Of a stretch of 64,000 nucleotides of DNA, positions 24,045 to 48,782 are shown piece after piece. The position numbers and the translations under genes were made by a program. The DNA is from Myxococcus fulvus (lineage in GTDB: Bacteria > Myxococcota > Myxococcia > Myxococcales > Myxococcaceae). The stretch lies in contig NZ_FOIB01000001.1 of the NCBI RefSeq assembly GCF_900111765.1, positions 1,674,001-1,738,000 of the forward strand. The letters run 5' to 3'. The first letter of the stretch is position 1. Every line of letters starts with the position of its first letter. The notes below the pieces were generated by a model that worked only from the letters and a program-made list of their open reading frames with translations, did no database searches and was not told where the DNA came from.

Positions 24045-27000
24045 ATGGGTGGCGTGAGAAACGGCAAGGGCACCGGAACGCCGGAGCCCGCGGCCGTCCG
24101 ACAGGAGGTGCCGCGAGCCGGCACGCTCGCCGTCGGGTCGACGGATGATGCGGCGGAAGGGGTGGCTCGCCACTTCCGGGCCGCCGCGCGCTGGCTGCGC
24201 GAGGGCTCCGCCGCCCGTGCGTTCGAGGAGCTGGCGACCGCCCGCCGCACCCTGCCGATGACGCCGCGTCTGGCCGCCGCGCTGGTGCGCTTCGGGCGAC
24301 TGGCGGGGGCTGAGACTGTTGCCATCGGGTTGCTGGAGGCCGTGCCGCCCACCGAGTCCGCCGAGGTCCGGCTCGCCGTGCGCCGACAGCTCGCGCGACT
24401 GTTGCGCAAGACGGGGCAGGGGACTCGCGCGGTGGCGGTGCTCGATGCGCTGACGTGGGAGTTCCCGGACGAGCGCCGTGCGCGGCGGGTCCTGGAGGCG
24501 CTCCGCGCGAAGAGCACGAAGCCGGCCGCCGCGCCCGTGGGGAGCGTGCTGGAGAAGCTGCCGACGAAGAAGTCGGGCGCGCAGGGCGTGTCCATCTGGG
24601 AGGAGGACGAGGTCGACTACCACGCGGCGACGGTGGTCGACACCTCGGGCGTGGCTCCGAAGGTGACGCCGGTGGCGCCGCCGCGCTCGCTCACGATGGA
24701 GTTGTCGCGGGTGGAGTTCCAGGTGGAGGGACCGCCCCTGGGATTGGAGACGTCCGTGGCTCCGACCACGGTGGAGACCGGGGCCGCTCGGCTGCCGGAC
24801 GTCGAGCCTCGCGGCAGTACGTCTTCGTCCGTGGGTGATGGTTCCGTGCCGTGGGATGTGACTCCGATGGATTCGGAGGCGCACGCGCGGGTCTCGGCGG
24901 AGGTCGAGGGTGGGTCGCGTGAGGGGACGGAGCGCGAGCGGGCTTCGGAGGGAGAGGACGCGACGACTCGTGAGCTGACGGATGTGGCGGCCACGCCGCT
25001 CGCCACCACGGAACCGAGTGTGAGCCGGACCGATGCGCTGGCCCTGCCGCTTGGCGATGAAGCTCGCGAGGAGTTGAGCGCGAGCGTCGAGGTGAGCGCG
25101 ACCTCGGAGCCCGGGAGCGCGACGCAGGACCGCCAGGTGGATGCGGCTCCCGGTGATTCGGCGAGTGCGACCTCCCTGGTCGGCGGCGTGACGGCCGCTG
25201 ATGGCATGGATACGCCGCTCGGTGACGCGTCGACGGGTGCAAGCGCGACGACCGCTGACAGCGCGGACGCGGCCCCCAGGAACACGACTGCCGCCGATGA
25301 GGTGAGGGCTGACGCTGCTGATTCGAGTGTGGCGGGCAGCGAGCGAACGGACGCGTCCTCTGGTGGTTTGTCGGGGGCGACTGTCGCGAGTGGGCAGGAC
25401 GTTGGCCGAGCGGTGACACCTGTCGATGACTCGTCGTCCGCGGTTTCGACGGTCGGGACCGAGGCGAACACCCGCCGCGCGAGTGACACCTCTGGAGATG
25501 TGCCGAGGGCTTCTTCCTCGGACGGACGTGAGGTCGTCGCTGGCGGAGCGGATGTGCCTGCCAGCGGTTCGTCGAGCGCGGCCCCTGCTGCCCCGCGGAC
25601 CTCCCCCTCGGCCGAGAATCCGACGGAGCTGCTTCGCGAGCGGGGTTCCCACGGGGCGTCAGGTTCGAGGTCTCTCGACCCGAACGCTCCTGCCGTCATC
25701 GGTGGGGACTGGTCTCAGGATGACTCCTCGACGGATGCCGCCGAGGGTGCCGCGCGTCCCTTGCTGGAGGTTCCACCCTCCGAGACGGACCTGCCCGCGA
25801 AGACCCTGGTCGAGATGCCAGCGGTCCGCCTGGGCGACCTGTCGGTTCCGTGGAACGACGCTCCCTCGGAGCGAGCATTGCTTCCCCGGTCCCTGGCTCC
25901 GGGCAGGCCCACGCCGTCGAAGGGAAGCCCGGCGGTGTCGGCGCCTCCCGTCCTGCAGCCCGTGGGGACGGAGTCCTCTTCGAGGAGCGCTGGCCCCACT
26001 CGAATCGAGGACGCTCCGCGTTCGGAGACGACGGAGGTTCCGCTCGCGGACCTGCTGGCGGCACTCGGGCGCGCATCCGCGGGCGGCGAGAGCGCGGGGC
26101 GAGCCGCGCCTGCTCCGGTGGGAAACAGCGGTCCCACGGCGCCGCCGCGCTCGGGACGCCCTGGCTCGGGTGAGCACGTCCACGGAGAGGACACGGAGGA
26201 GTGGGCGCACTCCCAGAAGCTGGAGGCCCAGTTCATCGCGCGTCGTGCGTGGAAGGAGCTGGCCCAGCTGTACCTGAAGCGAGCGGACCGGGCGAAGGAC
26301 CCGGCGATGCGCGCGGAGGCGCTGACGCGACTCGCGGAGGTGATGGAGACCGAGCTCCAGGACCCCGCGGGCGCCGCGCGCATGTACGGGGAGATCGTCG
26401 AGCTGACGGGGGACCGCGTCGCGCTTCGTGAGCAGGTGCGGCTGTTGGCCTCTCGTGATGATGCCTCGCTGGTCCGGCGCGCGCTCGACGAGGCCATCCA
26501 GCGAGCGCGAACCGGGCGGGCGCGTGCGACGGCGCTGCTGACGCGAGGCGAGCGCTGGCTCCACATGGGCGAGCTCCAGAAGGCCCGCGCGGACTTCGAG
26601 GCGGCGGAGGCGCTGGTGCCGGGGATGGTGCCCGCGCTGGCGGGGCTGCTGCTCTGTGTCGAGGGCGAGGAGCGACTCTCGCTGGCGTCCCGGCTGCGGA
26701 CGGTGCTCGCGGGATTGCAGCGTCGGACGCCCGACCGGGCCGAGGCGCTGCGGGTGCTCGCGCGCACCGCCGAGGAGCAGTTGCTTGATTCGCAGCTGGC
26801 GCAGTGGGCGTGGAGTGAAGTGCTCGCCGAGAACCCCGAGAGCGAGCAGGCTCGGGAGCGGCTCTTGTGGCTCGCGCGCGAGTTGGGAGACTCGGCGTCC
26901 CTGGGGCAGCTCCTGCGCGCGCAGATTGCTCGGGAGTCACGAGGCCCCGCGGCGCGACAGGCGCGGCTCGAACTGGTGGCCACGTTGGAGGCCGCCGGGG

Positions 27001-30000
27001 ACATGGAGGCCGCGCTGGGGGAGCTTCGCCAGGCGGTGCGCTTCGAGCCGGGGCACAAGGAGGCGTGGCTCCTGCTCGTGGAGCGGTTGTGGGCGCGTGG
27101 CAACCAGGGCGAGGCGGCCTGGGCGCTGGAGCATGCGGCCACCGCGACGGAGGACGAACTCGAGCGCGAGCAGACGTGGGACCGGTTGGCGCGTTTGTGG
27201 CGCGAGTCGCTCGGCAATGCGGAGCGGGCGCAGGTCTATGCGCGGCGCGCGGAAGGGTTGAGGCTGGCGCGTGAGGAGCGGGAAGCGGCGCTGCCGCCGC
27301 CCGAGCCGCCTCGCAGCGCGACGCCTCGTCGCGAGTCCAGTGGGCCGAGGTCTCCCTTGGCTCCCTCTCCGGCGAAGTCGACGGCGCTCGTGGCGGCGGG
27401 CGGAGACCTGTCCGAGGAGATCACCTCGAGCTCCGACCCCAATGTCCCTGCGGGACCGGGGGGCGTCGAGGCGACGAGCACCGCGCCTCTTCGCGGTGAC
27501 AGGGCGACGGGTCCATCGGCGAGTGGTGTGTCTGGGGCCTCCGCTTCGCGCGCCGAGCCGCATGCGGGCGCACAGGGTCTGCGAGGAGAGAGGTCCGCAC
27601 TTCCCCCGGGGGCGAGCAGCCCGAGTGCCAGGGAGGAGAAGGGCGCACCAGGCAATGTCGCGACGCCGTCGAGTGCGAACAGCCCGGGCCCGCGAGCTGG
27701 GAAGGCCGCGCCGCCCGCCGACGCTTCATCTCCGCGCACGGAGCGGGCTCCTCCGGCCACCAGCGCGCCTCGTACGGAGAAAGCTCCTTCATCCGCGGGT
27801 GCCGCGCCCAGCAACGCGCCTCGTGCGGAGAAGCCCGTTGCGTCCGCGGAAGTCGCGCCCGGCAACGCCTCGGCTCCTCGTGCGGAGAGGGCTCTTCCAC
27901 CCAGCAGTGGTGTGCCCGCCAGCGCGTCTCGTACGGAGAAGGGTTCAGCACCCGGCAATGCATCTCGCCCGGAGAAGCCTGTTCCCTCCGCGGGTGCAGT
28001 ACCCGGCGGAGCGCCTCGCAATGAGAGGTCCGTTCCATCTACAGGCGCCGCGCCCGGCAATGCATCGCGCGCGGAGAAGCCCGCGTCCTCAGCAGGTTCC
28101 GCACCCGGTAATGCATCGCGCGCGGAGAAGCCCGCTGCGTCTACGGGGGCCGTACCCGGCAACGCACCTCGCACGGAGAATCCTGCTGCGTCTACGGGAG
28201 CCGTACCTGGTAACGCATCCCGCGCGGAGAAGCCTGCTGCATCCGCAGGTGCATCAGCCGGCAATGCACCTCGTCCGGAGAAGCCTGCTGCGTCAGTAGA
28301 TGCAGCACCCGGCAACGCAGCTCGTGCGGAGAAGCCTGCTGCGTCCGCAGGCGCAGCACCCGGTAATGCATCTCGCGCGGACAAGCCTGCTGCGTCCGCA
28401 GGTGCAGTACCGGGTAATGCATCTCGCGCGGAAAGGCCTGCTGCGTTCGCGGGTGCAGCAGCCGGCAATGCACCTCGCGCGGAGAAGCCGGCCGCGTCCG
28501 CAGGTGCAGCACCCGGCAACGCACCTCGCACGGAGAAGCCCGCGCCCGCCGTCCTCGACGCGCCCGGCAACGCATCTCGCGGAGAGAACCCCGCGCCCCG
28601 CGCAGTGAAGCCCGCGCCCCCCGGCGCACGCACCGAGAAGCCCTCGCCCCCAGTCCTCGCTCGCGTGGACAAGCCCGCGCACCGTGAGGACAGTCTCGCC
28701 GCGCTCGGTCCGGAGCTGGAGCGTCCCGCTCCCTCGGGCTCCACGGTCGTCTTCGGCGAGAACGCCCCCGCGCCTCGCGCGGACCCACCGCCCCGCGCCC
28801 CCCGAGGCGAGAAGCCGCGTCCTCCGAGCCCCGCGCGTCCCCCGGAGCCCCAGCCGCGAGGTGGCAAGGCCATCGACCTCATGACCGGCGGCGCCATGGA
28901 CCTCGACGCCCCGGCCGTGCCGGAGACACGCATCATCTCCTGGGAAGCCCCGCCGGGCCGCATGGACCCCGTGCGTCGCGTCCACCGCCCCAACCGCCCC
29001 GAGGGCACCGCCGCCGGCCCCGCGCCGGGCCGCACCTTCATCGCGAAGCCCCCCCCGCCCGCCGCCCCGCTCGTCGGCGCCGCCGAGACGCGCGAGAACC
29101 CCATCGTCGTCCCCGTGCCCGCCCCCGCCTCGGACACCGAGCCCGAGGTCTTCCGCCAGCTCCGCGAGCGCCCGCTCGACACCGCCACCTACGAGCAGCT
29201 CGCCGACTTCTTCGACACCCGAGGCGACGCCCCGCGCGCCGTCCTCATGCGCGAAATCGTCGAGGCCCTCGCCGGTCGCGAAACGCCCGCGCCCCGCCTC
29301 CAGCGCCCACCCCTCACCGGCGACGAGCGCGCGGGCCTGCGCCACCCGGGCCTGCGCACCACCTCGGGCGAGCTGCTCGCCTGCGCCGGTATCGCCCTGT
29401 GCCGCCTGTTCCCCGCACAGGGGCGCGCCGCGGACGCCTCCGAGCCCCTGCGCGCCGTCGCCGGTCCCGGCGCGCCCGCCGTCCTCGACGCGCTCCACAC
29501 CTCCGCGCGCATCCTCGCGATGAACCTGCCGGAGCTCGTGCTCGCCGACGACGACGGCCCGCCCTTCACCGCTGTCCACACCGACAAGCCGCGTCTGCTC
29601 GTGGGCCGCGCCGCCATCCGCCAGCCCCTGCCCGCCGCGGAGCTGCGCTTCCACGCCGGCCGCGCCCTCCTGTCCCTCTCCCCGGACCTGCTCGCCCTGC
29701 GCGCGCTCAAGGGCGCCCAGCTCCTGCGCGCCCTCGCCCTGCTCTCCACCGTCCTCAAGGACCCCAAGGACTCCAGCGCCGACGCGCGGCTCGTGCGCGA
29801 CTCGCTGTCCCCGCGCGCCCTGGAGCGCACCCTGGAGCTGCTCGAGCCCGGCACCCGCGACTTCAACGCCTCCGCCCTCGCGGACGCCGCGCGCGACTCC
29901 GCCAACCGCGCGGGCCTGGTGGCCTGCGGCGGCGTGGGCCCCGCCGTCACGGTGATTCGCTCCCGCCGCTCCCAGGACTCGGAGCTGGTGGAGCTGCTGC

Positions 30001-30050
30001 GCTTCGCCGCGTCCGAGCGCTACCTCGCGCTGCGCGACGCCTCGCGCTGA
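24045..30050 (+). CDS. 2001-residue TPR protein with tandem-repeat linker
   Basis: The N-terminal ~160 residues form TPR-like helices (FRAAARWLREGSAARAFEEL). An acidic, Ser/Thr/Ala-rich disordered region runs to about 720. A second TPR block covers about 720-1075 (LYLKRADRAKDPAMRAEAL, then WAWSEVLAENPES). A Pro/Ala/Lys linker at about 1080-1690 contains twelve exact-length 17-residue repeats. The C-terminal domain (about 1690-2001) is compact and predicted helical, ending LLRFAASERYLALRDA, with no catalytic motif that I recognise. There is no signal peptide or membrane segment. Its size and architecture suggest a cytoplasmic scaffold (inference). A TAGACT box lies 9 bases before the ATG. Confidence 0.82.
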   Translation: MGGVRNGKGTGTPEPAAVRQEVPRAGTLAVGSTDDAAEGVARHFRAAARWLREGSAARAFEELATARRTLPMTPRLAAALVRFGRLAGAETVAIGLLEAVPPTESAEVRLAVRRQLARLLRKTGQGTRAVAVLDALTWEFPDERRARRVLEALRAKSTKPAAAPVGSVLEKLPTKKSGAQGVSIWEEDEVDYHAATVVDTSGVAPKVTPVAPPRSLTMELSRVEFQVEGPPLGLETSVAPTTVETGAARLPDVEPRGSTSSSVGDGSVPWDVTPMDSEAHARVSAEVEGGSREGTERERASEGEDATTRELTDVAATPLATTEPSVSRTDALALPLGDEAREELSASVEVSATSEPGSATQDRQVDAAPGDSASATSLVGGVTAADGMDTPLGDASTGASATTADSADAAPRNTTAADEVRADAADSSVAGSERTDASSGGLSGATVASGQDVGRAVTPVDDSSSAVSTVGTEANTRRASDTSGDVPRASSSDGREVVAGGADVPASGSSSAAPAAPRTSPSAENPTELLRERGSHGASGSRSLDPNAPAVIGGDWSQDDSSTDAAEGAARPLLEVPPSETDLPAKTLVEMPAVRLGDLSVPWNDAPSERALLPRSLAPGRPTPSKGSPAVSAPPVLQPVGTESSSRSAGPTRIEDAPRSETTEVPLADLLAALGRASAGGESAGRAAPAPVGNSGPTAPPRSGRPGSGEHVHGEDTEEWAHSQKLEAQFIARRAWKELAQLYLKRADRAKDPAMRAEALTRLAEVMETELQDPAGAARMYGEIVELTGDRVALREQVRLLASRDDASLVRRALDEAIQRARTGRARATALLTRGERWLHMGELQKARADFEAAEALVPGMVPALAGLLLCVEGEERLSLASRLRTVLAGLQRRTPDRAEALRVLARTAEEQLLDSQLAQWAWSEVLAENPESEQARERLLWLARELGDSASLGQLLRAQIARESRGPAARQARLELVATLEAAGDMEAALGELRQAVRFEPGHKEAWLLLVERLWARGNQGEAAWALEHAATATEDELEREQTWDRLARLWRESLGNAERAQVYARRAEGLRLAREEREAALPPPEPPRSATPRRESSGPRSPLAPSPAKSTALVAAGGDLSEEITSSSDPNVPAGPGGVEATSTAPLRGDRATGPSASGVSGASASRAEPHAGAQGLRGERSALPPGASSPSAREEKGAPGNVATPSSANSPGPRAGKAAPPADASSPRTERAPPATSAPRTEKAPSSAGAAPSNAPRAEKPVASAEVAPGNASAPRAERALPPSSGVPASASRTEKGSAPGNASRPEKPVPSAGAVPGGAPRNERSVPSTGAAPGNASRAEKPASSAGSAPGNASRAEKPAASTGAVPGNAPRTENPAASTGAVPGNASRAEKPAASAGASAGNAPRPEKPAASVDAAPGNAARAEKPAASAGAAPGNASRADKPAASAGAVPGNASRAERPAAFAGAAAGNAPRAEKPAASAGAAPGNAPRTEKPAPAVLDAPGNASRGENPAPRAVKPAPPGARTEKPSPPVLARVDKPAHREDSLAALGPELERPAPSGSTVVFGENAPAPRADPPPRAPRGEKPRPPSPARPPEPQPRGGKAIDLMTGGAMDLDAPAVPETRIISWEAPPGRMDPVRRVHRPNRPEGTAAGPAPGRTFIAKPPPPAAPLVGAAETRENPIVVPVPAPASDTEPEVFRQLRERPLDTATYEQLADFFDTRGDAPRAVLMREIVEALAGRETPAPRLQRPPLTGDERAGLRHPGLRTTSGELLACAGIALCRLFPAQGRAADASEPLRAVAGPGAPAVLDALHTSARILAMNLPELVLADDDGPPFTAVHTDKPRLLVGRAAIRQPLPAAELRFHAGRALLSLSPDLLALRALKGAQLLRALALLSTVLKDPKDSSADARLVRDSLSPRALERTLELLEPGTRDFNASALADAARDSANRAGLVACGGVGPAVTVIRSRRSQDSELVELLRFAASERYLALRDASR
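27963..28574 (+). repeat. 51-bp coding minisatellite, 12 units
   Basis: Twelve consecutive 51-bp units (612 bases exactly) inside the TPR protein, each encoding a 17-residue motif of the type SRAEKPAASAGAAPGNA. Differences among units are mostly in the second half (AGAV, STGA, SVDA). Degenerate units of similar length extend upstream to about 27780 and one downstream. Because the period is a multiple of three, copy-number change would preserve the frame and only alter linker length. Confidence 0.9.
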
Positions 30051-35712: not shown

Positions 35713-38700
35713 ATGGGTGTTCGACCACGGTATGACGGGGGCCAGCCCACCCCCGGGTCGGTGCGATGCAGTGAGAGAGGCGGACGACTCCGTGGGCTGG
35801 CGCTCGCGCTCGTCCTGACGTCGTCGACGGCGTGGGCCCAGGCGCCTCGGAGCGCCACCCTCCGGGAGTTCCATCACACGTCGTGGACCCAGAAGGACGG
35901 CGCGCCCGCCGGAGTCTGGGTCATGGCGCAGACGCGCGATGGCTGGCTGTGGTTGGGGACGGCGTCGGGGCTGTATCGCTTCGACGGTGTCCACTTCGAG
36001 CGCCATGACCTCCTGCCCGCCGGGAGCATCGCGTCGCGCTCCGTGGGTGTGCTGCGCGCCATGCGCAACGGTGACCTCTGGGTCGGCTACTCCTTCGGCG
36101 GCGCGAGTGTCCTCGATGCCCGCGGTGAGGTGCGCCACTTCTCCCCGGGCGGGCTGCCCGAGGGCAAGCCCGTGGAGTCCTTCGACGAGGATGGCGAGGG
36201 GCGTCCCTGGGCCATCACGCCCCAGGGCGTTCATGTCTTCGAGCAAGGCGTCTGGTCGAGCGTGGACGCTCGCTGGGGGCTGCCCGAGGACGAATGGTCC
36301 GACAGCCTCCTGGACGTGAGCGGCGCGTTGTGGATGGTGGGCTCGAGCAGCGTGTATGTGCTGCGCCCGGGGACCCGTCGCTTCGAGCGCGTGGAGTTCG
36401 ACGGTCCTCCCGTGCTGGCCTTGTTCGAGGGCCACGATGGGAGTCTCTGGCGGTACGACGAGCGGGGCGCCAGTCCTCTTCGGGGCCCTGGGTTTCCGGT
36501 CCCCTCTCCCCGGGGGCCGGCCGATGCGTGGAGCGGCCACTCGTTGATTTCGCTCTTCGACAGGGATGGCTCCTGCTGGATGGTCGGGTGTCCGCAAGGC
36601 GGTGTCTGCCGGGTCGCGAAGCCCTTCGAAGAGGGGCGGTTCCTCCGGCGCACCGATACGACCGACGTCTTCGGCGCCCGCGAGGGGCTCTCGTCGGACG
36701 CGGCCATGACGCTGTTCCAGGACCGCGAGGGCACCATCTGGGTCGGCACCCAGCTCGGGTTGGACCGCTTCCGGCGCAATGACGTCGCCACCCTGCGCTT
36801 CCCCACGCTGACGAGCTACTTCGCGCTCGTGGCGGACCGTCAGGGCCGGATGTGGTCGGGGTCCGCGACGCGAGCGGGGAACAACGACTTCTGGTGGCGG
36901 TTGGGGGAGGCCCCGGTCCGTGTTCCGGGCATCGAAGGGGAGATGACCGCCACCTTCCTGGATTCGGACGGGCGCCTCCTCTTGGGCGGCTCGGCGGGCT
37001 TCTGGCGCTTCGACCCGGAGACCGGTCGGGTGGAGACGCTCTCGCGTCCCGAGCAGGAGCAGGGGCAGCGCATCCAGGCCATCGTGCGCGACGCGGAGGG
37101 CCGGCTGTGGGTGTCCTTCCGCGCCTCGACGGTGTACCGCCTGGATGGGGACACCTGGACGCCGAAGGGGGGCCTCGCCGCGCTGCCGGACCTGCCGCCC
37201 GCGCGCGCGGTGCTGGATGCTCGGGGCCACCTGTGGTTCGGCTACAGCACCAACCAGGTGTTCATCCTCGAGGGTGCGCACGTGCGCGCCTTCAACGAGG
37301 AGCACGGCCTGCGCACCGGAACCGTGACGGCCATCCTCCCCGGAGAGCCCGCGCTGGTGGGCGGCGCGCTGGGGCTGGCCGCGTTCGACGGCGCGCGCTT
37401 CCGGATGCTGAAGGCGACGCACGCCGAGGTGCTGACGGGCCTCACCGGCTTGTTGAAGACGGAGGACGGGGCGCTGTGGCTCAACGGCCATGCGGGCGGT
37501 GCGCGCATCGCCGCGGAGGACCTGCGCCGGGCGCTGGCGGAGCCGGACTTCGTGATGCCCGTCGAGCGCTTCGACATGAACGACGGCATGCCCGGCGGCG
37601 CGCAGCAGATACGTCCGTTGCCCACGCTGGTGCGGGGAGGAGACGGGCGGCTCTGGTTCGCCGCCGTCAACGGGCTGGGCTGGATGGACCCGAGCCGCAT
37701 CGAGCGCAACGCCCTGCCCCCGCCCGTCATGATTCGCTCCGTGTCCTCCGGCGAGACGTCGTACGCGGGCACGACGCGATTGGAGCTGCCGCCCCGCACG
37801 CGCGAGCTGCGCATCGCCTACACGGCGCTGAGCCTGGGGATGCCGGAGCGGGTCACCTTCCGCTACCGGCTCGAAGGCGTGGATGACGGCTGGAAGGACG
37901 CGGGCCCCCGGCGCGAGGCGACGTACACCAACCTGGGGCCGGGCCACTATCGCTTCCAGGTGATGGCGGCCAACGAGGACGGCGTCTGGAACGAGCAGGG
38001 CGCGTCGCTCGAGCTCGACCTCGCGCCGACCTTCTTCCAGACGCGCGCGTTCACCGTGCTGTGTGTCGTCGGGGGGCTGGGGCTCGCGTGGCTCCTGTAC
38101 GCGCTGCGGATGTGGCGGGTGACGCAGCGGCTGCGATTGCGTCTGGAGGAACGCCACGCGGAGCGCGAGCGCATCGCCCGGGAGCTGCACGACACGCTGC
38201 TGCAGGGCATCCAGGGGCTCGTGCTCAACGTGCACGTGGTGACGTCGAGCCTGCCGGACGGGGAGGCTCGGCTCGGGCTCGAGTCCGCGTTGGACCGCGC
38301 GGACTCCGTGCTGACGGAGGGGAGAGACCGGGTGAGCTCCCTGCGGGACACCTCCGCGAGCAAGGACGACCTGGCCCAAGCCTTCACGTCCCTGGCGCGG
38401 GAGCTCGACCAGCGGGACGGACCTCGGCTGCGCATGGTGGTGCGGGGCGAGGCGCGCACGCTGGAACCCCTGGTCGCGGACGAGCTCTATCGCATCGGCC
38501 GCGAGGCCATCGGCAACGCGTTCGTGCACTCCCGCGCGCGCGAGGTCGAGGTCAGCCTGCTGTTCGAGCACCCCGAGCTGCGGCTGTGTGTGCGCGACGA
38601 CGGCCGAGGTATCGACGTGGCCACGCTGGAGCGGGGCGGGCGCGCCGGGCACTGGGGCTTGCGCGGCATGCGCGAGCGCGCCGAGAAGGTCGGCGGACGG

Positions 38701-38826
38701 CTCGACATCATCAGCGGCGAGGGACGCGGGACCGAGGTCCATGTCGTGGTGCAGGCCCAGCGCGCCTATCTGCGCCGGCCGCTGGAGGGTCTGCGGCGGC
38801 TGGTGCCTCGGCTCGGTCGGCGCTGA
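35713..38826 (+). CDS. Propeller-type hybrid sensor histidine kinase (HisKA_3)
   Basis: 1037 residues from ATG 35713; GTG 35761 is an alternative start nearer the signal peptide (LRGLALALVLTSSTAWA). The periplasmic part has two-component-regulator beta-propeller blades with the repeated pattern DGWLWLGTASGLYRFDG, GTIWVGTQLGLDRF and GRLWFAAVNGLGWMD. A Y_Y_Y domain follows (YRLEGVDDGWKDAGP, GHYRFQVMAANEDG). One transmembrane helix at about 785-805 leads to a HisKA_3 dimerisation helix with ERIARELHDTLLQGIQGL (phospho-acceptor His) and an HATPase with DDGRGID and GLRGMRERAEKVGG. There is no receiver domain and no NarL-type regulator next to it, so it is an orphan kinase, perhaps sensing a polysaccharide (inference). 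Confidence 0.92.
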   Translation: MGVRPRYDGGQPTPGSVRCSERGGRLRGLALALVLTSSTAWAQAPRSATLREFHHTSWTQKDGAPAGVWVMAQTRDGWLWLGTASGLYRFDGVHFERHDLLPAGSIASRSVGVLRAMRNGDLWVGYSFGGASVLDARGEVRHFSPGGLPEGKPVESFDEDGEGRPWAITPQGVHVFEQGVWSSVDARWGLPEDEWSDSLLDVSGALWMVGSSSVYVLRPGTRRFERVEFDGPPVLALFEGHDGSLWRYDERGASPLRGPGFPVPSPRGPADAWSGHSLISLFDRDGSCWMVGCPQGGVCRVAKPFEEGRFLRRTDTTDVFGAREGLSSDAAMTLFQDREGTIWVGTQLGLDRFRRNDVATLRFPTLTSYFALVADRQGRMWSGSATRAGNNDFWWRLGEAPVRVPGIEGEMTATFLDSDGRLLLGGSAGFWRFDPETGRVETLSRPEQEQGQRIQAIVRDAEGRLWVSFRASTVYRLDGDTWTPKGGLAALPDLPPARAVLDARGHLWFGYSTNQVFILEGAHVRAFNEEHGLRTGTVTAILPGEPALVGGALGLAAFDGARFRMLKATHAEVLTGLTGLLKTEDGALWLNGHAGGARIAAEDLRRALAEPDFVMPVERFDMNDGMPGGAQQIRPLPTLVRGGDGRLWFAAVNGLGWMDPSRIERNALPPPVMIRSVSSGETSYAGTTRLELPPRTRELRIAYTALSLGMPERVTFRYRLEGVDDGWKDAGPRREATYTNLGPGHYRFQVMAANEDGVWNEQGASLELDLAPTFFQTRAFTVLCVVGGLGLAWLLYALRMWRVTQRLRLRLEERHAERERIARELHDTLLQGIQGLVLNVHVVTSSLPDGEARLGLESALDRADSVLTEGRDRVSSLRDTSASKDDLAQAFTSLARELDQRDGPRLRMVVRGEARTLEPLVADELYRIGREAIGNAFVHSRAREVEVSLLFEHPELRLCVRDDGRGIDVATLERGGRAGHWGLRGMRERAEKVGGRLDIISGEGRGTEVHVVVQAQRAYLRRPLEGLRRLVPRLGRR

Positions 38827-38996
38827 GGTCTCCTGGCTGGAGTCGGACGGCTCGCACGCCCGGACGGGTGGTGGGCGAGCACGCGCCGTCTCCGGACGGA
38901 CCACGTCCCTCGGGACGCCCATGTCAGACAGCCCTGGCACTGTGGACCCCGGTAGCAGGACGGATGGGGCAGGGGCGGTGGGTCGAAGGGAGCGCC

Positions 38997-41390
38997 ATGG
39001 AACAGCGACCGTTGTGGGACGAGCCGACGGCGGACGACGCGGAGGAAGCCTCCACCAGGGGTTCCATCCCGTTGCGTACCTTGGGTGCGAGACGTCGCCG
39101 GGAACTGTCCCAACCGGAACAGGCCGCTACAGTGGCGTTCGCAGTGAGCGAGCACCCTCCCGTCCTGGCCTCCGTCGCCGTGGCCCGCCCCGTCCGGGGT
39201 GAATTCACCTACTCCGTGCCGGAGGCCCTCCTGGGGAACCTGGCCCCGGGGCAGCGCGTGCTCGTGCCCTTCGGCCGAGGCACTGCGCTCGGCTTCTACC
39301 TGGGCCCCTCCACCGTGACGCTGGGCGAGAAGGTCCGGCTCAAGCCCATCCAGCGCGTGCTGGAGGACTCGCCGTCCCTGCCCAAGGACCTCATCGCGCT
39401 CTTGCGCTTCGCGGCCGAGCACTACCGCTACCCGCTGGGCGAGGTCATCCGCGGCGCGCTGCCTCCGGGGTTGTCCAAGCCCGTGGACGGCAAGGAGGCC
39501 CAGCCGGATGTGCAGCAATTCGCGGTGGCGCTCGTCAACGAGGTGCCCGCGGCGCTCGCGCGCGCGCATGCCCAGTCCGCCGCGCTCGCGTACCTCCTGG
39601 CCGTGGGCGGCAGCGCCCCGCTGGAGGAGGTGAGCCACGCGATTCCCGGCGCGCGCGCGCACCTCAAGAGCCTGGCCACCAAGGGCCTGGTGCGCATCGA
39701 GGAGAAGAAGCTGGAGGCGGGCGTGAAGGAGGGGCTGATTCAAGGCCGCCCCGACCGCCTCACGCCCGAGCAGGCCGCCGCCGGAGAGCAGCTGCGCGGA
39801 GCCCTGGACGCAGGCGCGTTCCAGCCCTTCCTCCTGCACGGCGTGACGGGCAGCGGCAAGACGGAGGTGTACCTGCGCGCGGCCGAGCACGCGCTGTCCC
39901 TGGGCAAGAGCAGCCTCATCCTCGTGCCCGAAATCGCGCTGACGCCGCAGCTGGTGGGCCGCTTCCGCAGCCGCTTCGGCGCGGAGGTGGCGGTGCTGCA
40001 CTCGGCGCTGAAGGACCGCGAGCGGCTGTTCCACTGGCAGGCCCTGCGTCGGGGTGAGGTGAAGATTGCCGTGGGTGTGCGCTCGGCGGTGTTCGCCCCG
40101 GTGGAGAACCTGGGGCTCATCGTCGTGGACGAGGAGCACGACCCGTCCTTCAAGCAGGACGACAGCCTGCGCTACCAGGCGCGCGATTTGGCCGTCGTGC
40201 GAGGCAAGCAGGCCAGCGCGGTGGTGGTGTTGGGCTCGGCCACGCCGGCGCTGGAGACGCTGGAGAACGTCAAGCGCGGACGCTATCGGCTGCTCGAGCT
40301 GAAGCGGCGGGTGGATGACCGGCCCATGCCCACCATCGAGCTGGTGGACCTGCGTCAGGAGCGCCCCCGCGAGGGCATCGTGACGGAGGAGGCGCCCATC
40401 CTGAGCCCGCCGCTGTTGCAGGCCATGGAGGAGACGCTCGCGAAGGGCCAGCAGGTCATCCTGTTCCTGAACCGCCGGGGCCACAGCACGGTGCTCCTGT
40501 GCGAGGTGTGCGGCCTGTCGCTCAAGTGCACCTCGTGCGACGTGTGCCTGACGCACCACCGCTCGCAGAACCGGGTGGTGTGCCACTACTGCGGGCTGAC
40601 GATGCCCGTGCCCGAGCGGTGCCTGGAGTGCACGGGCCCCATCCTGAAGCTGGGCATCGGCACGGAGCGGGTGGAGGCGGAGGTCGTCGAGCGCATCCCG
40701 AACGCGCGGGTGGCGCGGTTGGACCGGGACTCGGCGACCAGCGCGGAGCGACTGACAGAGCTGCTCGCCTCGTTCGCCCGCCGGGAGCTGGACGTGCTGG
40801 TGGGCACGCAGATGGTGGCCAAGGGGCACGACTTCCCGGGCGTGACGCTGGTGTGTGTCGTCATGGCGGACACCTCCCTGGCCATTCCTGATTTCCGAGC
40901 CGCCGAGCGGACCTTCCACCTGTTGACCCAGGTGGCGGGGCGGGCGGGGCGGGGCAAGGACCCGGGGCGGGTGCTGGTGCAGACCTACAACCCGGACGCG
41001 GAGCCGGTGAAGCGGGTGCTGGCGCACGACTTCGACGGGTTCGCCCAGCAGGAGCTGGAGTGGCGCAAGGCGTTGGCGTACCCGCCCTTCGCGCGGATGG
41101 CCTCGATTCGACTGGAGGGGGAGCACCCGGAGCAGGTGGCCAGCGTGGCCCGGCACCTGGGGAACCTCGTCTCCCGGAACATGCCCCCGGCCTCGGCGGG
41201 GGTGCGGCTGTTGGGGCCGGCGGTGGCGCCCATCGCCAAAATCCGGGGGAAGACGCGCTGGCAGCTGCTCTTGAAGGGGCCGACACATGTGGCGCTCGCC
41301 CCGCTGCTCGCCAGGGTGGAGACGGCCCTGGCCGACGTTCCTTCGGCGGTGAAGGTCGTCCTCGACGTGGATCCGGGGGCCATGCTGTAG
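38997..41390 (+). CDS. priA: Primosomal protein N' (replication restart helicase)
   Basis: 797 residues. PriA reloads the replisome at stalled forks. After the N-terminal 3'-DNA-binding domain (SVAVARPVRGEFTYSVPEAL) comes the helicase core: Walker A GVTGSGKTEVYL, DEEH box IVVDEEHDPSFKQDD, LGSATPALETL, and QVAGRAGRG of motif VI. Zinc-binding cysteines lie in CEVCGLSLKCTSC, CHYCG and CLEC. ATG 38997 has a GAAGGGAG ribosome site and adds 49 non-conserved residues. GTG 39144 lies 10 bases after a TACAGT box and matches where the family homology begins, so it may be the true or a second start. Confidence 0.93.
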   Translation: MEQRPLWDEPTADDAEEASTRGSIPLRTLGARRRRELSQPEQAATVAFAVSEHPPVLASVAVARPVRGEFTYSVPEALLGNLAPGQRVLVPFGRGTALGFYLGPSTVTLGEKVRLKPIQRVLEDSPSLPKDLIALLRFAAEHYRYPLGEVIRGALPPGLSKPVDGKEAQPDVQQFAVALVNEVPAALARAHAQSAALAYLLAVGGSAPLEEVSHAIPGARAHLKSLATKGLVRIEEKKLEAGVKEGLIQGRPDRLTPEQAAAGEQLRGALDAGAFQPFLLHGVTGSGKTEVYLRAAEHALSLGKSSLILVPEIALTPQLVGRFRSRFGAEVAVLHSALKDRERLFHWQALRRGEVKIAVGVRSAVFAPVENLGLIVVDEEHDPSFKQDDSLRYQARDLAVVRGKQASAVVVLGSATPALETLENVKRGRYRLLELKRRVDDRPMPTIELVDLRQERPREGIVTEEAPILSPPLLQAMEETLAKGQQVILFLNRRGHSTVLLCEVCGLSLKCTSCDVCLTHHRSQNRVVCHYCGLTMPVPERCLECTGPILKLGIGTERVEAEVVERIPNARVARLDRDSATSAERLTELLASFARRELDVLVGTQMVAKGHDFPGVTLVCVVMADTSLAIPDFRAAERTFHLLTQVAGRAGRGKDPGRVLVQTYNPDAEPVKRVLAHDFDGFAQQELEWRKALAYPPFARMASIRLEGEHPEQVASVARHLGNLVSRNMPPASAGVRLLGPAVAPIAKIRGKTRWQLLLKGPTHVALAPLLARVETALADVPSAVKVVLDVDPGAML

Positions 41391-41405: not shown

Positions 41406-44400
41406 ATGGGCGCACCGGTCCTCCTCGTCCACGACGACATCGCCACCATCGCCGCAGTGCGGCGTCTGCTCACCCGTGAGGGGCACGAGGTCATCCTCGC
41501 GACCTCCGCCGCGGATGCGCTCATCGCCTACGGGCATCACCTGCCGGCGCTCATCGTGCTGGCTCCCGGCGTGGAGAGCGGCCGGGGGCGGTTGGTGCTG
41601 GAGGAGTTGCTCCAGCATCCGGACGGCAAGGTGGCCCGGGTGCTGCTCTTGGGCGAGCCCATCGCGGGGTTCAGTGCGCCGGTGGCGCCGCTGCCGCTGG
41701 ATGGGACGAGCTTCGTGGAGTTGGTGGATTCGCTCATCCGCGCGCCGTCGGCGGCGGACGCGTGGCATGTCCTGGAGAACCGGAGCCTGCCGGGCATGCC
41801 CGAGGCGACGGGGGCCGAGGACGCGGAGACGTGGCACGCCACGGCGCCCGGGTCGGCGGTGGGTGGGGACCCGACGCTGGCGAACGCCCTGTTCGGAGAC
41901 CTGGCGCCGCTGCACCAGACGGACTGGGAGCTGGCGGCGATGACGCGCGAGGAGCGCAGCGAGCACGAGGAGCAATCCCGGCGCGCGCCGCTCGATGTGC
42001 AGTCGACGCTGGAGAAGGTGCAGCAAGAGGAGGAGGCCGCGGTGCTGGCCTCGGCGCAGACCGCGTTGGCGGGAGGCGGCGAGGACTGGGGCGCGGCGGT
42101 GGCGGGGGAGGGAGCGTTCGACGAGAGCGCGCTGCCCGCGGACGAGGTGTTCCGAGGCGAGGGGGAGTCCGTGGGCCCGGGCGATGGCGCGGCGGGACCC
42201 GAGGCGGCTGCACGGGCGTGGGAGGGCGAGGCGCCGGAGACCGAGAGCGCCGCGTGGGCCGAGCAGGGGACGGAGGGTGGGTACGGCGACGGCGCATGGT
42301 CGGACGGTGGCGGCGAGCCAGGCGCCGAGGCGACGGGTGGGCACGGCGCGAGGGCGGACGAGGGCAGCGAACCGAGCAGCAACGCCTGGGCCGAGCAAGG
42401 CGCCGACGCCGCTGGTGAGCACGACGCTGCGTGGTCGGAGGGTGGCAACGAGCCGGGTTCCGAAGCGACGGGCGAGCAGACCAACGCCGCAGGGTCGGAC
42501 GGCATCAGCGAGCACGGGACGGCAACCGAGCCCGGTGACGCCGCCGCATGGACCGAGCAGGAAACGGCATCCGCTGCGAATCCGGAGGACGCCCACGGTC
42601 CGCAGACCTGGTTCGACGACGCGGCGGAACAGGGCACGCCTTCGGGCGCGGACGCCTATGGTGGCGATGCACTGCCGGGTGGTGCCCCGGAACACGGGTC
42701 CGCACGGGGCCTGGACTCCGCGAGCACGAACGACGGCACGGATTGGACGGGTGTCGCCCCCGAGCAAGGTGAGGCGTCGGATGCCTACGGCGCCGATGCG
42801 TGGGGTGCACCGCCGACCGACCCGACAGCAGGCGCGGCTCGTGCCGGAAGAGATACCAGCGTGTACGGCGCCGCACCGTGGACGGGAGCCGTCACCGACG
42901 AGCGCGGTGACCTCCTGGGCGAGGACGCTGACGATGCGTCCATCGGCGACGAGTGGACGAGCGAACCCCCTGAACAGGGTGCGTTCGATGCCACGTCACC
43001 CCAGTCCGCGGATGCCAGCTTCACGGACGCCACGACGACGCCCACTGACGCGCAAGCGGATGACGGGCAACACCCCTACGGCGCGGATGCGCCTCCGTCG
43101 GAGGGAACTGACACGGCCTACGGCGTGTCTCCGGGCTCCGACGCGATGGTGCAGGGCGCGGTGGACGACACGTTCTCCGAAGGCTTCGCGCCCCCCGCGC
43201 CAGACGCCGGGAACACGAGCGGCGCCGCAGGCGGTCCCGCGACCGTGCTGTATGGCGTGAGTGTGCCTGACCCGGGGGCCGTATCCGCGGAGTGGTCCGC
43301 CGAGTCCTCGGGTGGTGACGAAGCCCCATTGCCGGTGGGCAAGCTCGCCTGGACGGAGGAGCCCGTCTCCGCTGCCGCCAGGTCGACGCAACTCGGTGAA
43401 GAAGGCTTCTTCGACGTCGACGCTCCCGCGCCACAAGGCGATGCGCTCTCGGCGGCCGAGGCGGAACTGGCCGCGATGCGCGACGCCGAGCAACGCGTAC
43501 CCGAGCCGGTCGACGCGGCTGCCTGGACCGAACTGCCGCCCGACCCCGAGGTCGAGAACGCCGCGAAGGGCTTCACGACGTCGGATGAACCGACCCTGCC
43601 CGCCCACGTCGACGCGAGCGTGGACGCACCTTCCACCGAGGCCTCCTCCGAGGAACCTGGCGAAGAAGAGCGCTTGCCCGCTTCGCCGTGGGATGTGTTG
43701 GAGGCGGACCTCCAAGCCAAGGTCCGAGCCGAGGACGAAGACCCCACGAGCTCGCCCCCCGAGTCCTCCAACCGCCAGGTGGGCGAGGACTGGTTCGACT
43801 CCGAGTCTGACGAGAAGCAGTCGCCTCCGGCGGCCACGGCATCGAGCGGCAGCGACCTCGAGGCGTCCGCGCCCGACGCTCGAGCGGGCACGACGGAGGC
43901 AGTGCACCCGGAGACGCCCGGTGATGCGCCGGAGTCGGCCGAGTCCACGAATTCCTCCTCTGTTCCGGGAGCCGACCTCGGAGACCCGGAGCCCGGGAAC
44001 GACGACGATTGGACCAGTGCCAGGGCGGACGCCCCGGCATCCGGCGCGGCGGTGAGCTGGGGGACGGCGGGAGCCAACGCCGACACCTCGATGGCGGACG
44101 TCGCCGCGGGCTGGGCAGACACGGCCGAGTCCTCCGACCCCACCGCGCCAGCCGTCGAGTCACCCGAAGAGCCCGAGGCTTCCTCCGGCTGGTTCGACGC
44201 GGAGCCCGAGCTGCCTGCTTCGACGCGGCCCTCCGCGAGCGAAGGGTGGTTCGACGCCGACACGGAGTCCCCGGATGCGACCGCGAGGACCACCTCGCTC
44301 GACGAATCCGCGCCGAGCGAGCCCTCCGTCGGAACAGCGCCGGAGCAGACCACGGAAGCGGTGTCGGCGAGCATCGTGGACGACCCGACGCTGCGCGCGC

Positions 44401-47400
44401 GCTGGGAGGAGTTCGAGCGCCAGTTGGAGGAAGCGCACGAGCGGGTCCACGCGCTGAAGGCGGCGTTGGATGAGGAGACCGCGCTTCGCCAGGAGACCGA
44501 ACGACAGGCCCAGGAGGCCCGCGAGCTGAGCGAGTCCCTGCGCACCATCCTGGACCGCGAAGCCGCGCTGCGCGTGGAGGCGGAGGCCGCGCGAGACCGA
44601 CAGACGGAGCAGCTCCAGTCGCTCCAGACGCGGCTCGAGGTCCTCGAGGAGGAGCACTCCCGGGACGCGACGTTGCTGGCGGAGGTGGACCAGCAGTTCC
44701 AGGAAGCCCGAGCGAGAGAAGACGAGAACGCGGCGGCGCTCGCGCGGGAGGAGCGTGCGCGGAGAGAACTCGAGGCCGAGCTGGAGATGGCTCGCCAGCG
44801 TGAGTCCGAGCAGGGCGTGCGCAGTGGCTCGGAGGTGGAGACCCTGCGCACGGAGCTCGCGAAGCTCCAGGCGCGACTGGTGGAGGCGGAGGCGCTCGCG
44901 GAAGCCGAGACGCGCGCACGGGCCTCCGTGGACGAGGCCGCGAAGGCGACGCTCGGACGCATCGAGTCGCGAGAGCAGGACTTCGTCGAGCTGCGCGCGT
45001 TGTTGGAGACCTCGACGTCGGAGGCGCGCGAGCAGGCGAAGCAGTCGGCCGAGGCCCTGTCGCGCGCGGAGGCGGAGGTCCGCGAGGCGCTCATCGCGCG
45101 GGACGATGCGCAGGAGCGCGCCGACCGTGAGTCGCTCGACCGAGCGGAGACGCAGGCCCGGCTCGCGGAGCTGGAGGCGAAGCTCGCGGAGTCTGAAACG
45201 CGAGAGGCCGCGTCGGCGCAGGCGATGAGGGAGATCGAGCTCCGCATCGAGGACGAGGCCGCGGGTCGGGTCGACGCGGAGGTGCGAGCCGAGGCGGAGG
45301 TCCGCGCGAGGCAGGCGCTCGAAGCGCGAGTGAAGGCCGCGGAAGTGGCGCTCGTCGAAGCGGAGGCGAGGGCGGGCGCGGAGGCCCTGGCCCGTGCGGA
45401 GGCAGAGGCCCGAGCGGAAGCGGCGGACGCGGCCCGGCTCGAATCGGATTCTCGAGCGAGGGCGGAGTCGCGAGCTCGCGCGGAAGCGGAAGCCCAGGCG
45501 GAGCTGGAGTCGCGGGCGCGGAGCGAAGCCGAGGCGCGAGCGGAGGCGGAGACCAAGGCACGCGAGGAGGCGGAGGCTCGCGCCAGGGCCGAGGTCCAGG
45601 CGCTCACCCAACTGGAGACCCAGGCCTCGTCCGAGGCGCGGGAGCGCTTCGCGCAGGAGGCCCAGGCGCGCGAGGAGGCGGAAGCCCGAGCAGAGGCCCA
45701 GGAGCAAGCTCTCGCCGAGGCCGAAGCGAAGGCCGAGGCCGAGACGAAGCTTCGTGAAGAGGCCGAAGCCAGAGCCGAGGCGGAAGCCAAGGCGCGAGAG
45801 GAAGCCGAGGCGCGAGCGGAGTTCGAGGAGAAGCAGCGCGAGGAAGCCGCCGCACGCGCCGAGTCCGAGGCGAAGCTCCGCGAACAGGCGGAAGCGAGAG
45901 CCGAGTCCGAAGCGAAGCAGCGCAAGGACCTCGAGGCCCGAGCGAAGGCCGAGGAGAAGCAGCGCAAGGAACTCGAAGCGCGCGCGAAGACCGAGGAGAA
46001 GCAGCGCAAGGAACTCGAAGCGCGCGCGAAGGCCGAGGAGAAACAGCGCAAGGAACTCGAAGCCCGAGTGAAGGCCGAGGAAGCACAGCGCAAGGAACTC
46101 GAAGCCCGAACAAAGGCCGAGGAAGCACAGCGCAAGGAACTCGAAGCCCGAGTGAAGGCCGAGGAAGCACAGCGCAAGGAGCTCGAGGCCCGAGCGAAGG
46201 CCGAGGAATCACAGCGCAAGGAACTCGAGGCCCGAGCGAAGGTCGAGGAATCACAGCGCAAGGAGGCCGAGGCCCGCGCGGAGATAGAGGAGTCGCAGCG
46301 CAAGGACGCGGAGGCGCGAGCCGAGTCCGAAGCGAAGCAGCGCCAGGACGCCGAAGCGCGAGCGGAAGCCGAGGCAAGACAGCGCGCGGAACTCGAGGCC
46401 CGAATCGAAGCCGAGGTGAAGCGGCGAGAGGACGCCGAAGCCGAGGCCGCGTTCGAGGTGGAGCTGCGCGAGGAGGCCGAGGCCCGTATCGAAGCCGAGG
46501 CGAAGCATCGCGAGCAAACCGAAGCCGAGACGAAGCAGGCCCAGGCGCTCGCCGAGTCGGAGGCCCGTCTGCGCGCCGAAGCCGAGGCCCGGGCGGACAC
46601 GGACGCGAAGCAGCGAGTCGTCGCGGAGACGCGCGCGGAAGCAGAAGCCCGGCAGCGAGCGGAGGCGGACGCGCGAGCCGCCGCCGAGGCCGAGGTCCGC
46701 GCGGACGCCGAGGCCCGCGCCCGAAAGGCGGAGCAGGCCCTGGTCGACGCGGAAGCGCGAGCCAAGACAGAAGGCCGTCACCGCACCGCCCTGGAAGTGC
46801 GCCTGGAGGCGGAAGCCCGTCAGCGCGCCGCCGTGGAGACGCGCATCGAGGAGCAGGCCCAGGCGTTGAGCGCGGCCGAGGCCCGCTCCGCCCAGCTCCA
46901 GGGGCAGCTCGAGCAGACGGACGCGGAGCTCGCCCGACTGCGCACGGATCACGAGGAGGCCCGCGCGGCCCTGGAGTCGCTGCGCGAGGAGAAGGCCCGC
47001 CTGGAGAAGGACTCCGCGGAGGAGCGCGCCCGCGCCGAGCGGGAGCGCCTGGAACTCGAGGAGCGGGGACGTCGCGAGGCCGAGGAGGCCGCCGCGCAGG
47101 CCAGAGCGGCGCTGCTCCCCCTGGAGGCACCTCCGGGACGTCCGGAGCTCGCGGTGTCACGCAGCGGCAGTGTCACGCAGGAAGGTCTCGCCCGACTGGT
47201 GCTCCGGCTCTGCGAGGCGCGCATGGAGGTGCGCCTGGAGCTGAAGGTGATGAACGCGCTGCGCGTGCTGTGGCTGCGAGATGGCCTGCTCGTGGGCGCC
47301 GTCTCGTCGGCTCCTGGTGAGTCGCTCATCGACCGCGCCCGAGCGGATGGCCTCATCGACGCGCGGCAGGAAGGCGAGCTGCGGCTGGTGCGCAGCGCCA

Positions 47401-48167
47401 CCACCGGCGCGCTGCTCGACGCGCTCCGGGGACGTGGCTACCTGCGCGAGTCCGAGTCCGTGCCCCTGGTCCAGCGCTACACGGAGCAGGTCTTCCTCGA
47501 CGCCCTCTCCGAGCCCTCCACGCTGTACCGCCTGGTCCAGGAGCCGGTGCCACACGAGGTGGCGCTCGCCGCCGCCACCCGGCCGCCCCTGTTCCTCCTG
47601 GCCGAGTCCCTGCGCAACACGCTGACCGCCGAGTCCCTGCTCGAGGCCGCCGGCAGCCTGCGCGCCCGCGTCACCCGCGGCGACCTGCACCTCGCGCCCG
47701 ACGACTTCGGCCTGCCCGCCAGGGACTTGCAGCTGCTCTCCCAGGTGGACGGCGAGCACACGCTGGAGGCGCTGCTGCTCGGTGCGGGGCTTCCCCAGGA
47801 CTCGGCGCTCAAGGCCCTCTCGGTGGCGAGGACGCTGGGCCTCATCACCCTCCAGCCCGCGAACACGGAGGACTCGGACGAGCTGCCTCCCGAACTGGAC
47901 GTGCGTCGGCTGGAGTCCAAGTTCGAGGAGATCCAGGACGCGGACTACTTCACCGTGCTGGGGCTGGCGCGCACGGCGGGCGGCGAGGAGGTCAAGCGGG
48001 CCTTCGAGCTGCTCACCGCCGAGTTCCACCCCCTGCGTTTCGCGGGTCATCCGGACCCGGCGCTCCAGCACCGCGCGCAGCAGATTCGCAGCGTGTTGTC
48101 CGAGGCGGCCCAGGCCCTGGGGGATGACCGACTGCGCGCCGAGTACGCACGGAGCCTGCTCGACTGA
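41406..48167 (+). CDS. 2253-residue pseudo-receiver/coiled-coil/PATAN/J-like protein
   Basis: Domain order: residues 1-115 look like a response-regulator receiver ([18 protein letters not shown]), but the phospho-acceptor Asp is Ala53 in LIVLAPGVE. Residues about 160-990 are acidic and disordered with recurrent WFD motifs. About 995-1900 is a continuous Glu/Ala/Arg coiled coil, including 14-residue (two-heptad) repeats. About 1915-2150 resembles a PATAN/DUF4388 domain ([17 protein letters not shown]). About 2175-2253 is J-like ([20 protein letters not shown]), with HPL at 2208-2210 in place of HPD. Myxobacterial AglZ and FrzS share receiver-plus-coiled-coil architecture and act in motility and polarity; similarity of role is inference. 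It starts 15 bases after priA. Confidence 0.85.
45942..46277 (+). repeat. 42-bp coding repeats in coiled coil, 8 units
   Basis: Eight consecutive 42-bp units encode 14-residue motifs such as [14 protein letters not shown], then [14 protein letters not shown] and [14 protein letters not shown]. Three more degenerate units follow. Fourteen residues are two coiled-coil heptads, so unit gain or loss would keep the helix register. Confidence 0.9.
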
Positions 48168-48218
48168 CGTGGGGTGGACGTCCCTGTCAGGGGCGGGCGG
48201 GCGGTGGCCGGAGCGGGG

Positions 48219-48247
48219 TTGCCCGTCCGCGCGGGGGGCGTTAAGAC
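48219..48247 (+). promoter_or_regulatory. Sigma-70-like promoter of def, leaderless
   Basis: TTGCCC (48219-48224), 17-base spacer, TAAGAC (48242-48247). The -10 ends 7 bases before the ATG at 48255 and no ribosome-binding site is present. Confidence 0.45.
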
Positions 48248-48254
48248 GGCCTGC

Positions 48255-48782
48255 ATGGTTCGTGAAATCCTCATCTGGCCCGACCCCATCCTGAAGCAGA
48301 AGGCCAAGCCGGTGACGAAGGTGGACGACTCGGTCCGCGCGCTGGTGAAGGACATGTTCGAGACGATGTACGCCGCTGACGGCGTGGGGCTCGCCGCGCC
48401 GCAGGTGGGCGTGCTCCAGCGCGTCATCGTCCTGGACACCACGCCCCGCCAGCCCGAGTCCAAGCCCCTGGCGATGATCAACCCCGAAATCGTCACCCTG
48501 GAGGGCGAGACGACCTACACCGAGGGTTGCCTCTCCATCCCCGGCGAGTCGGAGGACGTGGACCGCGCCGCCGTCGTCACGGTGAAGTACCTGGACGTGG
48601 ACGGCAACGAGCAGACGCTGCGCTGTGACGAGCTGCTCGCCATCGCCGTGCAGCACGAGACGGACCACCTGAACGGCACGGTGTTCGTGGACCACGTCTC
48701 CACGCTGAAGCGCGAGTTCATCCGCAAGCGGATGAAGCGCCTCAAGGCTTCGCGCGAGAACGAGCTGGGCGCTTCGCGGTAG
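48255..48782 (+). CDS. def: Peptide deformylase
   Basis: 175 residues. It removes the N-formyl group from nascent peptides. All three family motifs are present: GVGLAAPQVG (motif I), EGCLSIPG with the metal-binding Cys (motif II), and QHETDHLNG with the HExxH ligands (motif III). It is the functional partner of the fmt gene at the start of the window but is not linked to it. The last 41 bases overlap the end of the convergent nth gene. Confidence 0.96.
   Translation: MVREILIWPDPILKQKAKPVTKVDDSVRALVKDMFETMYAADGVGLAAPQVGVLQRVIVLDTTPRQPESKPLAMINPEIVTLEGETTYTEGCLSIPGESEDVDRAAVVTVKYLDVDGNEQTLRCDELLAIAVQHETDHLNGTVFVDHVSTLKREFIRKRMKRLKASRENELGASR

Follow-up and report, generated by a model that had tools for sequence, protein, structure and literature searches.

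A Myxococcota protein family beside priA and def with a pseudo-receiver, a variable charged spacer and a degenerate J-like end

A very large gene between priA and def

The window analysed here, a stretch of 64,000 nucleotides from the Myxococcus fulvus contig NZ_FOIB01000001.1, contains a very large open reading frame lying 15 bp from priA and 6 bp from def (Table 1). The GC content at its three codon positions (0.79/0.53/0.85), together with its orthologs, indicates a real gene, whose ATG start is pinned in most relatives by a stop five codons upstream. Its closest matches come from Myxococcus/Pyxidicoccus. The gene also stands, at 89% identity, on L019, a contig of 969 kb recorded as Comamonas sp. 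KCTC 72670 that is probably a Myxococcus under the wrong name. An Rfam scan of the entire 64-kb window returned no match, and a scan for promoters and terminators gave no signal above chance. Elsewhere in the window, a second very large reading frame (24045-30050, 2001 aa) shows weak TPR matches only. Our search of open-access texts found no paper naming or studying the gene flanked by priA and def, and none combining the domain names described below.

Table 1. Features of the gene and its immediate neighbours (positions within the window)
Feature	Coordinates	Strand	Basis
priA, upstream neighbour	38061..41390		PriA_3primeBD, DEAD, PriA_C domains
Whole gene, 2253 aa	41406..48167	+	ORF and orthologs; priA and def either side
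Pseudo-receiver, residues 1-115	41406..41750	+	Pfam, profile, model, Foldseek, alignment
Acidic, low-complexity, probably disordered spacer, residues ~116-1040	41751..44525	+	composition
Charged helix with hydrophobic heptad signal, coiled coil likely, residues ~1041-1260	44526..45185	+	sequence statistics
Ala/Glu/Arg/Lys helix, single-alpha-helix-like, residues ~1261-1870	45186..47015	+	i/i+4 salt-bridge spacing
42-bp tandem repeat, 17.5 copies, 14-residue protein unit	45799..46535	+	
DUF4388/PATAN domain, residues 1921-2070	47166..47615	+	Pfam, model; orthologs above cut-off
Winged-helix domain, residues ~2076-2152	47631..47861	+	model; NPRL2 winged helix match, Z 8.3
J-like domain, residues 2180-2247, HPL replaces HPD	47943..48146	+	Pfam, profile, alignment
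def, downstream neighbour	48174..48782		Pep_deformylase, E 5e-52

Domains at the two ends and the spacer between them

The N-terminal domain has the alpha/beta fold of receivers. In the window protein itself, the Pfam Response_reg family (PF00072) scores 20.2 bits at residues 5-75 (E 7e-4), below its cut-off of 30.2; a profile built from 13 orthologs and run against PDB sequences matched solved receivers at E 7e-6, and the predicted structure (mean pLDDT 80) adopts a receiver fold that gave 387 PDB matches in Foldseek at E <= 0.001. No helix alpha4 was seen in the predicted model between beta4 (79-82) and beta5. The top match was the pseudo-receiver of CikA (2j48, E 1.3e-7), which likewise keeps the fold while lacking the phospho-acceptor, although CikA is a cyanobacterial clock kinase with no architecture in common with the window protein. 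The phospho-acceptor Asp, the Thr/Ser and the Lys of the family are all absent here (Ala53, Gly83 and Leu96), and the acidic pair D10-D11 is retained. Losses of the same kind run through 32 aligned receivers of the order. None of them has the Asp (A 18, Q 6, S 6, G 2), 31 carry Gly in place of the Thr/Ser, 30 show Leu or Arg and then Pro at the position of the Lys, and the acidic pair mostly remains. Elsewhere in the phylum, the orthologs L103, L104 and L107 keep the receiver Asp ("VLDL") and have lost the acidic pair, which by sequence appears to be a separate route to a pseudo-receiver; the idea that the Asp was lost ancestrally was dropped because of these three.

At the other end of the protein stands a module of three domains. 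DUF4388 (PF14332), the PATAN domain, scores 20.7 bits in the window protein against a cut-off of 25, so that the PATAN-like domain of the first-pass annotation falls short in this sequence by itself and stands through orthologs that exceed the cut-off (L103, L081 and L108). The winged helix that follows had been overlooked in that annotation. It is seen in the C-terminal model, and the main match of a VIA-align search with this model was the winged helix of NPRL2 (GATOR1), the remaining helical rows being within chance range. A PATAN domain followed by a winged helix is reminiscent, in its order, of the longin-winged helix layout of NPRL2/NPRL3 in GATOR1, with the match itself confined to the winged helix; PATAN may conceivably be related to longin/roadblock folds.

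The last domain resembles the J domains of DnaJ proteins (PF00226) in sequence profile and length. With the last 355 residues as query it scores 29.2 bits (cut-off 27.8, E 1e-6), and with the whole protein as query 25.6 bits, below that cut-off; the profile matches E. coli DnaJ 1bqz at E 4e-6. The structural model is of low confidence in this part (pLDDT about 42-64), and a Foldseek search with the C-terminal structure found nothing at E <= 0.001; 1wjz, matching the J part alone, ranked low (probability 0.85). Unlike in DnaJ proteins, the HPD tripeptide is lost in 75 of 77 aligned copies and the other DnaJ regions are absent. The site reads HPL in 35 of these copies, DPL in 8, NPL in 4 and HPD in 2 (L077 and L081), the rest being others. 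A reading of the two HPD copies as the ancestral state was withdrawn once HPL/HPM/HPA appeared in other classes. A second family, with frames of ~770 aa in many of these genomes, has only the J-like end in common with the present one (for example G130:C620:9550-9804 and G132:C69:183396-183650, profile positions 259-343).

The identity of these domains is settled by orthology, since the syntenic ortholog L103, from another part of the phylum, lies above the Pfam cut-offs for receiver (39.5 bits), DUF4388 (54.3) and DnaJ (36.0) together. The earlier description of a receiver-like N-terminus without its phospho-Asp and of a J-like C-terminus with HPL for HPD holds, neither end falling outside the receiver family or the J fold, respectively.

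Between the ends, the stretch from residue 116 to 1040 is acidic and has few hydrophobic side chains. There are 25 Trp in residues 131-1040, recurring in acidic or small contexts (WFD, WTE and similar). Such Trp-rich acidic motifs (WFD, WTE, WAE) are repeated through 41830-44430, within the disordered stretch, and L012 has 27 matches of the W-x-D/E type; we do not claim them as conserved docking peptides, given that they are common in the genus and near relatives and fade in other genera. The charged rod that follows had been described as ~900 residues of coiled coil. Some 220 of them do carry a heptad signal (residues 1041-1260, z 2.7-3.1), whereas the ~610 of residues 1261-1870 are dominated by a salt-bridge pattern, with opposite-charge i/i+4 pairs far more frequent than in shuffled sequences (z up to 11.6), a depletion of like-charge pairs and only a slight heptad core. 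By these statistics, this second part looks more like a charged single alpha-helix than a coiled coil, although a weak coiled coil is possible. If the rod were one continuous helix, it would be about 125 nm long (830 residues x 0.15 nm). The tandem repeat within it is a plain route to changes in spacer length.

Conserved ends and a recurrent place in the genome

Within the genus, comparison with ortholog L095 gave 94% identity for the J-like part, 91% for PATAN and winged helix and 88% for the receiver, next to 88% for the neighbouring PriA and 77% for Def. As the best conserved module, the J-like end is being retained rather than decaying. In near relatives the ends are about 70-96% identical, and the middle 28-60% in best local alignments. 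Orthologs range in total length from 529 to >2300 aa, and the spacer measures anything between roughly 60 and 1800 aa, with the end domains still recognisable. Both ends are under strong purifying selection despite the loss of their catalytic or signalling residues, as binding modules on a scaffold would be.

HPD is required for a J domain to stimulate DnaK. The strong conservation of the J-like part, as well as the HPD in L077 and L081, could be read in favour of a chaperone-linked signalling protein, whose J-like end would still contact a DnaK paralog in a non-canonical manner. We hold this to be highly improbable, as the change goes beyond HPD: the residues aligned to K26 and R27 of E. coli DnaJ, which contact DnaK, are Glu and Leu in the window protein. 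With no HPD in the J-like end and the usual phosphorylation site gone from the receiver, both ends most likely act by binding.

The family was traced with a C-terminal profile, at thresholds of E <= 1e-5 for the order and E <= 1e-12 for a sample of the phylum. Matches were found in 141/145 genomes of the order, some of them J-only paralogs, and in 135/195 genomes of the phylum sample, a few of which (e.g. G089) are J-only. Orthologs occur across the order and in other classes of Myxococcota. The loci examined came from divergent members of the order (36) and from other parts of the phylum (20), and 54 of them had a readable ortholog once L111 (no frame) and L116 (not an ortholog) were left out. 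In 34 of the 54 the gene immediately follows priA, in 41 (42 counting L085) def comes next after it, and in 50 it adjoins one or both; the four loci with neither neighbour (L093, L105, L114 and L115) are on contigs with no upstream sequence. The gene is not invariably placed between priA and def, in view of exceptions that lack priA upstream (L066, L068, L069, L071, L072) or def within 2-4 kb downstream (L076, L087, L088, L092, L093, L100, L101, L105, L110, L114, L115). Conversely, priA and def are adjacent in 11 related genomes with no match to the gene (those in which priA was read), from which it follows that the gene was either inserted into the priA-def pair or lost from it. A shortened copy with a 493-aa frame (L149) is probably decaying. 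The gene is missing from some families of the order, and is thus not universally needed.

The genes on either side might instead hint at a part in replication restart or translation. The protein would then be a factor tied to priA and def, acting in replication restart or in a ribosome or nascent-chain function alongside peptide deformylase, as suggested by the short gaps to both genes and by the recurrence of one or both beside it across the phylum. However, both work without the gene in the many related genomes where they adjoin each other, a Pfam search of the protein gave no domain for binding the primosome or the ribosome (although nucleic acid might be bound by the winged helix), and the conserved placement may reflect expression level alone. 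We therefore regard such a role as unlikely.

A proposed two-headed scaffold and its possible kinship with FrzS and AglZ

The reading that we favour, with a probability of roughly 55%, is that of a scaffold or tether of Myxococcota that works through binding modules at its two ends, independently of phosphorylation and of DnaK. Its two protein-docking heads would be the pseudo-receiver on one side and the C-terminal PATAN-winged helix-J-like module on the other, and the acidic disordered stretch and the charged helical rod would form a spacer under loose constraint in both sequence and length. The analysis itself establishes the domains, their missing residues, the conserved ends, the changeable spacer and the siting by priA and def; the docking function, the state of the rod, any oligomerisation and the partners are what we infer.

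Known systems share parts of this plan. FrzS of M. xanthus and AglZ also have an N-terminal receiver or pseudo-receiver and a long charged helical region, whereas the window protein has a rod built for the most part on salt bridges and not on heptads and, unlike them, belongs to a family found phylum-wide beside priA/def. The PATAN response regulators PatA, PixE, PixG and LsiR, as well as three proteins encoded in the window's own genome (L002, L003 and L007), also combine a receiver and PATAN in one protein; unlike in those regulators, the receiver of the window protein is dead, hundreds of residues separate it from PATAN, and a J-like domain follows.

The likeness to FrzS and AglZ had led the first-pass annotation to propose a polar or filament-forming scaffold with inert binding ends. 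As a motility scaffold of this type, the protein would act via MglA-linked partners to control gliding or type IV pili. Its overall plan is like that of FrzS, which pairs a pseudo-receiver with a long coiled coil and whose receiver (2i6f) matches the predicted model at E 2.5e-6. That receiver is, however, one of many equal matches, no closer structurally than many ordinary receivers. Neither FrzS nor AglZ is known to have a PATAN, winged-helix or J-like end, which also speaks against such kinship. Moreover, genomes with priA next to def and without the gene nonetheless encode PilB and PilT above curated cut-offs (G024, G143, G144, G003, G005, G009, G010, G037), and one genome (G127, weak evidence as a 2.1-Mb draft) keeps the gene with no PilB or PilT above cut-offs, so that type IV pili neither require nor explain the gene.

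In the literature, FrzS docks onto SgmX through its pseudo-receiver and reaches the pole through its coiled coil (PMC11580455), cyanobacteria have PATAN response regulators that act on their pilus motors and PATAN proteins that affect their pili (PMC7690835), some genes for MglA-type GTPases lie near PATAN genes (PMC4316618), and SgmX co-occurs with two PATAN proteins of M. xanthus, not necessarily the product of this gene (PMC11580455). It is by analogy with the FrzS, cyanobacterial PATAN and MglA-neighbour cases that the gene would be linked to polarity, and a pilus-, polarity- or small-GTPase-related partner for PATAN is a reasonable guess drawn from other PATAN proteins, no more. Altogether, we find a FrzS/AglZ-type role rather doubtful; the earlier proposal is supported in its inert binding ends, given the lost residues and the strong purifying selection, and finds no specific support for FrzS/AglZ kinship or for a true coiled coil over most of the rod.

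Each domain was already known, as was the plan of a pseudo-receiver and a rod. In the open-access papers searched, we found neither this combination of domains nor its locus across the phylum, nor a degenerate J end that has been retained. A bolder form of the scaffold reading, which at present we would not expect to hold, is that of a core family specific to Myxococcota, in which inactivated ancient heads are joined by an evolvable rod, a ruler or tether tuned in each lineage, its siting beside priA/def linking cell organisation to growth. The same housekeeping neighbours across the phylum, and dead domains conserved above Def within the genus, make it likely that the protein has an important role in myxobacterial cells, and its natural series of spacer lengths offers material for comparing a ruler with a simple linker.
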